Part shown: one piece after another, positions 10,885-30,060 of the stretch
Layout of the letters: each line of letters begins with the position of its first letter
Numbering within the stretch: position 1 is the stretch's first letter
Source of the DNA: Cellvibrio sp. OA-2007
Lineage (GTDB): Bacteria; Pseudomonadota; Gammaproteobacteria; Pseudomonadales; Cellvibrionaceae
NCBI RefSeq assembly: GCF_000953825.1
Contig: NZ_BBUL01000087.1
Location: 1-64,000 of the forward strand
Length of the DNA: 64,000 bases
Direction: 5' to 3'
Made by a program: the position numbers and the translations under genes
Notes under the pieces: generated by a model
The model's database searches: none
Told to the model about the DNA's origin: nothing
The model's input: only the letters and a program-made list of their open reading frames with translations

Positions 10885-11775
10885 TTAATCCTTGGATGCT
10901 CGTGGATCAAGTGCATCGCGCAAACCATCACCAAGAAAATTAAGAGAAAACAAGGTAATGGTTAACACCAAGCCGGGGAATATCAGAAGCCACGGGTATT
11001 CTTCCATGGTTTCCACACCATCAGAAATTAGCGACCCCCAGGAACTTGCTGGCGGCTGAACTCCCAAACCCAAAAAGCTTAAAAAGGATTCCAATAAAAT
11101 AACGCTAGGGATGGTGAGTGTTGTGTAAACGATGACAGGGCCGAGCACATTAGGAATTAAATGCCGGGAAATAATTCGCCAAGGGGATAGTCCCATCGAT
11201 ATGGCGGCCTCAACGAACTCTTGCCGCTTAATTGTTAATACTTGCCCGCGAACAATGCGCGCCATAGTCAACCACTCTACCGCGCCGATAGCCAGGAACA
11301 GTAACAACAAGCTACTACCAAAAATAACACTGAGTAAAATGATAAAAATAGTAAAAGGCAAGGCATAGAGTGCATCAACAATTCGCATCATAATGGCATC
11401 TACCCGGCCGCCAACAAAGCCTGCAACAGAGCCCCATAAAACACCAATCGTCAGTGCAACTGCAGTTGCAATAAATCCCACCATCAATGATATGCGGCTG
11501 CCATACATGATACGTGTCAGTTGGTCGCGACCAAGAACATCTGTGCCGAGCCAGTGCGCAGCAGAAGGCGCAGAAGCACCTAAATCCAGATTTTGCTCTT
11601 CGTAAGAGTAAGGGGCGATCCAAGGTGTTAATAAAGAAACAACGATAATCAACAGCAGTATTAAGAGGCTTGCCATTGCCATTTTATTTTTACGCAACCG
11701 TGCAAATGCATCTTGAGTTAACGAGGTGCCTTTTTCCAATGGTTGTGATTGGGCAGATAATTCATTATTCAACAT
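10885..11775 (-). CDS. oppC: oligopeptide ABC transporter permease (OppC type)
   Basis: A 296-residue inner-membrane permease. A cytosolic N-terminus is followed by a membrane segment (about 32-52), then a periplasmic region with GTDVLGRDQLTRIMYGSRISL, typical of the OppC/DppC group, and five further hydrophobic segments. The EAA loop reads EAAISMGLSPWRIISRHLIPN and contacts the ATPase. It partners OppB and the fused ATPase. The gene is only 2 bp from oppB and 3 bp from the ATPase gene, so translation is likely coupled. The exact peptide range cannot be told from sequence. Confidence 0.92.
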   Translation of the reverse strand: MLNNELSAQSQPLEKGTSLTQDAFARLRKNKMAMASLLILLLIIVVSLLTPWIAPYSYEEQNLDLGASAPSAAHWLGTDVLGRDQLTRIMYGSRISLMVGFIATAVALTIGVLWGSVAGFVGGRVDAIMMRIVDALYALPFTIFIILLSVIFGSSLLLLFLAIGAVEWLTMARIVRGQVLTIKRQEFVEAAISMGLSPWRIISRHLIPNVLGPVIVYTTLTIPSVILLESFLSFLGLGVQPPASSWGSLISDGVETMEEYPWLLIFPGLVLTITLFSLNFLGDGLRDALDPRASKD

Positions 11776-22858: not shown

Positions 22859-23497
22859 TTATTGAGCTGGCTGTATACGTTTATCGATTACAGCATCAAT
22901 CAAGCCATAATCTTTTGCCTGCTGAGCAGACATAAAGTTATCGCGCTCAGTATCCACCTCTATTTTTTCAATGGGTTGGCCTGAATGAAATGCCATTAAC
23001 TCATTGAGGCGTGAGCGGATCTTCAATATTTCTTGCGCTTGAATGTGTATGTCAGATGCCTGCCCCTGTGCTCCGCCGCTTGGCTGGTGAATCATCACGC
23101 GGGAGTTGGGCAGGCAAAAGCGCTTGCCTTTAGCGCCCGCATTTAACAAAAATGCGCCCATGCTACATGCTTGACCTATGCACATGGTGCTCACATTTGG
23201 TTTTATGAACTGCATAGTGTCATAAATTGACATACCTGCAGTAACTGATCCGCCTGGTGAGTTAATGTACAGATGGATATCTTTATCCGGGTTTTCGGCT
23301 TCCAGAAATAAAAGTTGAGCTACGACTAAATTTGCCATGTAGTCCTCAACGGGACCAACAAGGAATATCACACGCTCTTTAAGCAAGCGTGAATATATAT
23401 CAAATGATCTTTCGCCTCGTGCCGTTTGCTCGATAACAATCGGTACAAGGCCACTATTGATAGGAGATAACAGGGAGTTCATGTGTTGGTATGACAT
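22859..23497 (-). CDS. clpP: ATP-dependent Clp protease proteolytic subunit ClpP
   Basis: A 212-residue serine peptidase that forms the double-heptamer chamber used by ClpX and ClpA. The catalytic triad motifs are clear: [11 protein letters not shown] with the Ser, [10 protein letters not shown] with the His, and the Asp in the TERDNFMSA region. The N-terminal dozen or so residues form the usual short propeptide before [19 protein letters not shown] lies about 12 bases before the ATG, a rather long spacing. It sits between tig and clpX in the standard order. Confidence 0.96.
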
Positions 23498-23635: not shown

Positions 23636-23667
23636 AAGCCGCAAAACAGGCGTTTTGCGGCTTTTTT
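23636..23667 (+). terminator. hairpin with plus-strand T-run between tig and clpP
   Basis: Perfect 12-bp arms AAGCCGCAAAAC and GTTTTGCGGCTT with loop AGGC are followed by TTTT on the plus strand. Read leftward, in the direction of tig and clpP, the stem is followed by CCATC and not by T. It therefore looks like a terminator for rightward transcripts, or a processing or attenuation hairpin in the tig-clpP message. Confidence 0.55.
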
Positions 23668-23673
23668 AAACGA

Positions 23674-24987
23674 TTAGCGCTGAGCGTTAGCCTTGATGAT
23701 TTCATCGTAGCTAGTTTGTACTTCAGCGACTTTGGCTTGCGATAAGATATAGTCCACGACCTGATCTTCCAGCACTGCCGACTCCACCCCAGCCATCAGC
23801 TCCTGATTGCCATTGTAGTACTCAACCACTTCTTTTGGCTCTTGATAAGTTGAAGCAATCTCTTCGATCATAGCTTTTACGCGTTTTGCTTCAGGCTTAA
23901 GTTTGGCAGACTTTACAATCTCACCAACAATTAAACCCAAGGTTACACGACGAGCAGCTTCATCTTGGAACATAGTATCGGGAAGCAAGGATTTAACGTC
24001 AAAGTTTTGTTGTTGTCCGCCAAAACGTTGCATCATTTGATTGCGCAGCACCTGAATCTCATTGGCAACCAACGCTTTGGGCACTTCTGTAGTGTGAGAA
24101 GCAATTAGAGCATCCATTACTTGGCCTTTAACTTTTGCTTTCAGTGCATTGGCCAACTCGCGATCCATGTTTGCTTTTACTTCTTTGCGGAATTGCTTTT
24201 CACCGCCTTTTTCTACACCAAACTTTTGGAAAAACTCTTTCTTTAATTCTGGTAGTTGAGCTTCTGACACACTATTAACGGTGATTGCAAAATCTACCGC
24301 AGCCCCTTTCAGTTATTCAGCCTGATAATCTTCAGGGAAAGTAACTGAAACAACCTTGTTCTCACCTGCTTTCAGACCAACAATGCCTTCTTCAAAACCA
24401 GGAATCATTGATTTCGAGCCGAGCACTAAATTGTGATTATCAGCCTTACCGCCAGCAAACTCAACGCCATCTTTGGTGCCAACAAAATTGATATTAACTT
24501 GGTCGCCATCGGCAGCCGCACGCTCTACAACAGACCAAGAAGCCTGATGCTTGCGCAACACCTCAATCATATTATCGACATCAGTATCAGTCACTTCTGC
24601 TTTGAAGCTGGTGAGCTCGAACGCTGTAAGATCGCTCAATGCAACACTTGGATAAACTTCGAAGGTTGCAATGTATTCAAGATCTTTACCTACAGCCAAC
24701 TGCTTTGGCTGAATGGATGGCTGGCCAGCAGGTTTTACATTTTCTTTTTGTACTGCAGCATAAAAAGAACGGCTAATTACATCACCCACAACCTCTTGAC
24801 GAATGCCAGCACCAAAACGCTGTTTGACGACAGACATTGGCACCTTGCCCTTGCGGAAACCTTTGATGCTTACGTTGCGTGCCGCTTGTTTCAAGCGATT
24901 TTCAACTTCGTTTTCTACTTGCTCTGCGGGCACGCCAACGGTTAAGCGGCGCTCCAATCCAGAAGTCGTTTCGAGTGAAACCTGCAT
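23674..24987 (-). pseudogene. tig: trigger factor, interrupted by an in-frame TAA
   Basis: Together 438 codons, the normal length of trigger factor, the ribosome-bound chaperone for nascent chains. The 5' part (24313-24987, 224 residues) has the ribosome-binding GFRKGKVP signature and most of the FKBP-type isomerase domain, ending FPEDYQAE. A TAA at 24313-24315 follows. The same frame then continues without any shift through LKGAAVDFAITV into the C-terminal chaperone domain (23674-24270 as a separate open frame, with PELKKEFFQKFGV and AYHEP-like TYQEPKEVVEYY). The alignment to E. coli Tig, recalled from memory, keeps exact register with Asn at the stop position. The GTG at 24270 has no ribosome site, so internal restart is doubtful. 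A nonsense mutation (for example CAA to TAA), a sequencing error or readthrough are the options. A good ribosome site (GAGG) precedes the first ATG. Confidence 0.88.
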
Positions 24988-28858: not shown

Positions 28859-29551
28859 ATGACCTTGATTGTGATTCTTGTTTTTTTGATGCTGATAACA
28901 CTTTTTGCGGTGAGCGTGCTTCATCGCATACAGCAGCGTCAGCGTCAACGCCGGTTAGAGCAGCGCCGCCTGCGCATCCAAGTAGAAGAGTTAACCGATG
29001 TTGTGAATTGTTTGGAGCAGACACTGCCAAACAGGGTCATTACCAAGCACATAAATGACATGATTATTGCGTTGCAGCATCAAATGCTGGCATTGGAAGA
29101 CAACAATCGTGAGCGTCTTGAAAGCGCGATACTGAAAAGTGAGCTGTATTCAGAAGAGCTTATCAACCCCAAAAATCGCCAAGGTATTAGCTATCAAAGG
29201 GACAGTGATGCACAAATTGCGAAAACTCAACTCTATATCAATGAGGCTGTAAACCTGATGGTGCAACTTGCCGCTCAGGGTACTATCAATGAAGTTGAAT
29301 TGGACTCCTATCAAGCAGAGTTGCGCTGGGCCTATCTAATGGTATCGGTGATGTCATACATAGCTCAGGGTGACAAGTCTGTCGCCATAAGTGATCGCCT
29401 CGCATTTTACCGCAAGGCACAACACCTCTTGATGGAGTCAATGCATCAAGATCCTCGGCGCTTACAGATGATTAAAGAGTTAAGTGAGATGATAGACGGT
29501 GAGCGCGTCGGGCTTAGTAGCGCTTTACGCGAGATGGCACCGGCAGCCTAG
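28859..29551 (+). CDS. membrane-anchored helical protein of unknown function
   Basis: A 230-residue protein. Residues 2-22 are a hydrophobic anchor (LIVILVFLMLITLFAVSVL) followed by an Arg/Gln-rich stretch (IQQRQRQRRLEQRRLRIQVEEL), which suggests the bulk lies in the cytosol. The remainder is rich in Leu, Gln and Glu and predicted all-helical, probably coiled coil. No enzymatic motif is visible and I do not recognise the family. There is no clear ribosome site; the promoter-like TATAAT lies about 190 bp upstream. Its stop codon overlaps the 3' end of the convergent next gene by 4 bp. Confidence 0.7.
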   Translation: MTLIVILVFLMLITLFAVSVLHRIQQRQRQRRLEQRRLRIQVEELTDVVNCLEQTLPNRVITKHINDMIIALQHQMLALEDNNRERLESAILKSELYSEELINPKNRQGISYQRDSDAQIAKTQLYINEAVNLMVQLAAQGTINEVELDSYQAELRWAYLMVSVMSYIAQGDKSVAISDRLAFYRKAQHLLMESMHQDPRRLQMIKELSEMIDGERVGLSSALREMAPAA

Positions 29552-30060
29552 CCCTGTGAATCAGCTGGTTGATATTCGGTTTGATGCAGCCCGCGCAACA
29601 TTTCGATTAATCGATCCAAGGTTTCCACCGCTTCTTTTTCTTGCCAGAAAATACAAATACCCATATTGCCGCAACTAATGGCAGGAACTGATTCTGGCAA
29701 TTGTGGCAAATAGACCCTCAGAAGATCACACGTAGCAACGCTTGGACGCACGTCCGTTTGCCAATCCCACGCTAAATAAAAGTTACTTTCGTGAACGTAA
29801 GGGGTGCGCATCAGTATCCATTCTGGCACTTCTTGGATTTTAGATGGTGGCGGCAAGTAATACACAGGCAGGGTTGCAGGTTGATCCATATCTGTTTTTA
29901 ATGGAGGTAATTTGCGCATACTAAAGCGCACGCCCCGTGTACTAGCGTAGGTGCGCAATTGTTCCTTTCGTTTTTGTCCAGGGCTTGGCTTAAGCATGGA
30001 AATGGGGCCTATCACCAAGGCAATCACCACAATCAAAATAATAAAAAACCAAATATTCAT
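29548..30060 (-). CDS. single-pass membrane protein of unknown function
   Basis: A 170-residue protein. Residues 4-24 form a membrane helix (WFFIILIVVIALVIGPISML), followed by a basic segment and a soluble domain with WILMRTPYVHESNFYLAWDW and NMGICIFWQEKEAVETLDRLIEML. I do not recognise a named family. It is convergent with the preceding gene, overlapping by 4 bp, and divergent from the universal stress gene 73 bp away. Base composition is like its neighbours, with no sign of transfer. Confidence 0.7.
   Translation of the reverse strand: MNIWFFIILIVVIALVIGPISMLKPSPGQKRKEQLRTYASTRGVRFSMRKLPPLKTDMDQPATLPVYYLPPPSKIQEVPEWILMRTPYVHESNFYLAWDWQTDVRPSVATCDLLRVYLPQLPESVPAISCGNMGICIFWQEKEAVETLDRLIEMLRGLHQTEYQPADSQG

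Follow-up and report, generated by a model that had tools for sequence, protein, structure and literature searches.

Trigger factor, encoded by tig, combines an N-terminal ribosome-binding domain (Trigger_N, PF05697), an FKBP isomerase domain (FKBP_C, PF00254) and a C-terminal chaperone domain (Trigger_C, PF05698). Loss of trigger factor typically has no growth impact in laboratory tig deletion strains (PMC11559001), and the chloroplast protein Tig2 is a natural truncated trigger factor consisting of the ribosome-binding domain only (PMC11731035). Here we describe an in-frame TAA within the tig gene of Cellvibrio sp. OA-2007 (assembly GCF_000953825.1). The gene lies in the window analysed, a stretch of 64,000 bases corresponding to bases 1-64000 of the 140,081-base contig NZ_BBUL01000087.1.

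The locus resembled that of known trigger factors in the gene itself, the domain order, the frame length and the neighbours clpP, clpX and lon. Over residues 1-224 the window tig aligned with the same residues of 1w26, a trigger factor chain in the list of solved structures. The difference lay in the stop at codon 225 and in an encoded product without a complete FKBP isomerase domain, the end of which was missing, and without the whole C-terminal chaperone domain. As with Tig2 (PMC11731035), the N-terminal product could occupy the ribosome while lacking chaperone arms; unlike Tig2, the truncation was found in one genome, kept most of the isomerase domain and was not accompanied by a full-length copy. 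The likeness to the laboratory deletion strains (PMC11559001) is the loss of trigger factor, although here the cause would be a point nonsense allele and the species is not a laboratory one. Listings from searches of the open literature contained no account of tig being lost in Cellvibrio.

A single in-frame stop in a full-length tig frame

Translation of the minus strand from 24987 to 23674 yielded 224 residues, a TAA, 212 residues and the terminal stop, confirming an in-frame TAA within an otherwise full-length tig frame (Table 1). The frame comprised 437 codons in register with one internal TAA, hence the single nonsense codon proposed in a preliminary description of this DNA, and not a frameshift. 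Of 19 relatives read, 17 shared this length and two had 438 and 439 codons. The gene was the orthologue at the tig-clpP-clpX-lon locus, and no second tig copy was present in the genome (4.6-Mb assembly of 97 contigs, 100% complete by listing).

Profile searches placed Trigger_N at residues 1-143 (E 1.2e-45) and FKBP_C at residues 156-223, both before the stop, while Trigger_C (E 3e-33) was matched only beyond it. The FKBP_C match covered profile positions 3-73 of 94. The preliminary description had also claimed trigger factor motifs on both sides, a normal total length and an interruption close to where the isomerase domain ends, all of which agree with these matches and the frame length. The translation contained GFRKGKVP, an instance of the motif GFRxGxxP assigned to the N-terminal ribosome-binding domain of trigger factor in the accessible part of PMC11559001. 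The genuine start of tig was preceded by GAGG, 5 bases ahead of its ATG.

Codon 225 in relatives

Glutamate was encoded at codon 225 in all 19 readable tig copies from 18 genomes of the same genus. The same-genus set comprised 21 genomes, including that of the window; G013 yielded no match, and G010, whose frame is broken by N gaps, did not enter the codon count. Two loci of slightly different length (L017, L018) contributed to this count but not to the pairwise, per-codon and tree comparisons. The TAA was, as the preliminary description had supposed, one base away from the codon found in relatives. Among 80 wider loci, five of which (L024 to L028) were same-genus genomes again, codon 225 encoded aspartate (33), asparagine (23), glutamate (20), histidine (2), alanine (1) or glutamine (1). 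A stop at this position was not shared by relatives, being found in none of the 19 same-genus copies and none of the 80 wider loci.

An N-terminal tig match was obtained in 141 of 144 family genomes, the three without a match being listed as 77, 68 and 97% complete. Frames of at least 439 codons were present in 139 of the 141 matched genomes, and the exceptions were the genome of the window (237 codons) and the gap-broken G010. In an order-level search, Trigger_N was detected in 289 of 292 genomes, and among the places listed the only frame shorter than 435 codons was that of the window's genome. A conserved split or truncation was considered and rejected, as none occurred among the same-genus copies or the family genomes read.

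Two genomes of the genus displayed features of their own. In G010, short N gaps in and near tig (positions 1304-1305, 2053-2054 and 2273-2274 of locus L021) shifted the frame and mimicked a broken gene; by eye, the scaffold carried a glutamate codon at 225. G015, listed as 6% contaminated, held two different tig copies (C62, locus L011, and C156, locus L022), probably from two organisms in one bin; both are included in the 19 copies from 18 genomes.

Constraint on both sides of the stop

Judged from the sequence comparisons, tig is under roughly equal constraint on either side of the stop. In trees of the equal-length copies, the third-position branch leading to the window measured 0.53, while the branch for first plus second positions measured 0.016 before the stop and 0.029 after it, both within the range of the relatives. 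The ratio of after to before computed from these trees was 1.9 for the window, compared with 1.8, 0.8, 1.4 and 1.0 for L003 to L006 and about 5 for L007 and L010. Private residues of the window copy were equally divided (3 before and 3 after the stop, among 18 equal-length copies). The nonsynonymous distance (dN) to L003 was 0.022 before the stop and 0.031 after it; synonymous distances (dS) to the nearest relatives were near saturation, which makes the dN/dS values rough.

Relaxed constraint beyond the stop was considered and found unconvincing, its only hints being the ratio of 1.9 and the slightly higher dN, both weak. As a rough expectation, free drift over more than a few percent of the window branch should give clearly more change than this. 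With similar constraint on both sides, the stop would therefore be either very young or absent from the organism.

Chance stops and integrity of the assembly

The split tig frame is unlikely to be a chance pattern. In a codon-usage scan of all 140,081 bases, restricted to stops flanked on each side by 50 or more open codons (n = 106), the TAA in tig had the second-best two-sided score. The third-ranked stop, at 10887, was a junction between two separate genes. Six more high-scoring stops were inspected, of which two were clear junctions and the rest resembled junctions, gene starts or shadow frames. One of the two junctions involved a frame that we take, from its residues, to be SixA-like, with an ATG immediately behind the TAA of its neighbour; the other a presumably LigA-like frame followed by another ATG.

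Comparison with the genome G001, which covered some 51 kb from the start of the window, gave a similar picture. Only 2 of 40 G001 frames with a match on the contig showed an inner stop, namely tig and a mere difference in start. The latter, at 29548-30060, was considered as a second broken gene and rejected: the frame, which had no NCBIfam match, starts farther upstream in G001, and its stop lies directly before the window's own ATG. No other nonsense-split gene was thus found on the 140-kb contig, either in the scan of 106 stops with its seven other inspected high scorers or in the G001 comparison. All 45 TonB-receptor barrel matches were also free of inner stops. A generally decaying or error-rich assembly was rejected, as the G001 comparison, the codon-usage scan and the TonB barrels gave no sign of it.

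Origin of the stop

The pattern described above suggests, with slight preference, that the otherwise normal tig of the sequenced strain acquired its TAA from a glutamate codon through one very recent base change. In our judgement a real mutation is slightly favoured because the assembly was otherwise clean where tested. Glutamate codon 225 would have been lost by one substitution so recently that the allele, although near-null, would be too young to have decayed. Two points weigh against this. The whole tig frame was kept in 139 of the 141 matched family genomes, so that natural loss is rare there, whereas a consensus error can fall anywhere; and the TAA in this strain is known from one draft assembly alone. 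A miscalled base, with the tig of the strain intact, is for these reasons quite possible, if short of probable. Such an error would fit a stop that is the sole defect in a constrained gene, lies one base from the codon of the relatives, is not found elsewhere in the family and affects a gene rarely lost there; in the tig of an intact relative, 165 of the 3933 single-base substitutions possible in its coding codons create a stop, a chance of about 4% per substitution error. However, no comparable defect was met on the 140-kb contig or in the 45 TonB-receptor barrels, and the substitution error rate therefore seems not high. Mutation and miscalled base both predict all that is seen. The finding is in either case an ordinary one: an unshared single nonsense codon in a gene that can be lost in laboratory strains, or a miscalled base.

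Explanations in which the C-terminal part is still translated fared much worse. Restart or reinitiation past the TAA, leaving trigger factor in two pieces with a separate C-terminal protein, would account for the open and conserved C-terminal frame, and candidate codons exist in frame, the nearest ATG, GTG or TTG being the GTG at 24270. It is nevertheless very improbable. Nine Shine-Dalgarno-like strings were sought within 20 bases upstream of each of the 15 in-frame start-like codons in codons 226-329, and none was found, which bears out the earlier remark that this GTG has no ribosome site. Codon 240 specified valine in every one of the 18 equal-length copies and was GTG in just 3 of them, the window included, so that the GTG appears merely as a valine codon. 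The cut would also fall within the isomerase domain, ahead of its predicted last strand, and no split was seen in any relative read. Readthrough or recoding of the TAA into full-length trigger factor is the least probable explanation of all. It would fit a frame that runs on and stays conserved, but in a search that scored 150 of 207 candidates no anticodon for the stop TAA was present in the 42 tRNAs located, TAA terminates other genes of the contig (e.g., at 125722 and 88207), and the stop was not found in any relative read. UAA is, moreover, the tightest stop codon. Of the interpretations offered in the preliminary description, a nonsense codon with possible loss of the chaperone domain and a sequencing error thus fit all findings, while restart and readthrough were left unsupported.

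Predicted product and possible consequences

If the substitution is real, the cell would make residues 1-224, a product that could presumably still bind the ribosome but whose isomerase domain would be broken and whose chaperone arms would be missing. In an AlphaFold model of an intact relative (15 sequences, mean pLDDT 88.6), the stop precedes the strand at 230-244, which we take to be the last one in the isomerase domain, along with all helices from position 250 onwards. The fragment would probably be unstable or of little use. By analogy with chloroplast Tig2, it might still sit at the ribosome exit and do something useful, which we consider highly unlikely. DnaK, SecB and other chaperones may cover the loss: the genome gave two strong matches to HSP70 (DnaK-like) and one to SecB, all without inner stops.

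Genomic neighbourhood

Genes onward from tig on the same strand were clpP, clpX, lon, an HU-type protein and a PpiD-like isomerase. Profile matches in this neighbourhood support the earlier placement of clpP, clpX and lon downstream of tig; the HU and PpiD-like names are provisional, being best NCBIfam matches under the curated cut-offs of those models. Upstream of tig were a tRNA-Leu, a frame without NCBIfam match and topA. The protein genes around tig were uninterrupted relative to the syntenic contig of G001. The premature stop in tig could reduce transcription into clpP through polarity.

Directly after tig, at 23638-23661, a ten-base inverted repeat with a loop of 4 was observed. It is followed by six T on the plus strand and has a T-poor tail on the tig strand; it was not among the results of the terminator scan. 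By eye, the same repeat was present in L021 with one loop difference.

Table 1. Coordinates of the interrupted tig frame, its parts and the adjacent clpP in the window
Feature	Coordinates	Strand	Description
tig (trigger factor) reading frame	23674..24987	-	437 codons plus terminal stop, one interruption; from translation, domain matches and relatives
Encoded N-terminal part, 224 aa	24316..24987	-	Trigger_N ribosome-binding domain and incomplete FKBP domain
In-frame TAA, codon 225	24313..24315	-	Glutamate encoded by each of the 19 same-genus copies
C-terminal part beyond the stop, 212 codons	23677..24312	-	Last FKBP strand (predicted) and Trigger_C chaperone arms; open, conserved frame
GTG put forward as restart, codon 240	24268..24270	-	Conserved valine without a preceding Shine-Dalgarno
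clpP, intact, downstream of tig	22859..23497	-	

Significance

When a single draft genome shows one in-frame stop in a constrained gene that is kept almost universally, caution is due, and little can be concluded before the base is verified. If the TAA is verified, Cellvibrio would hold a natural near-null allele of tig, matching the dispensability of trigger factor known from deletion strains.
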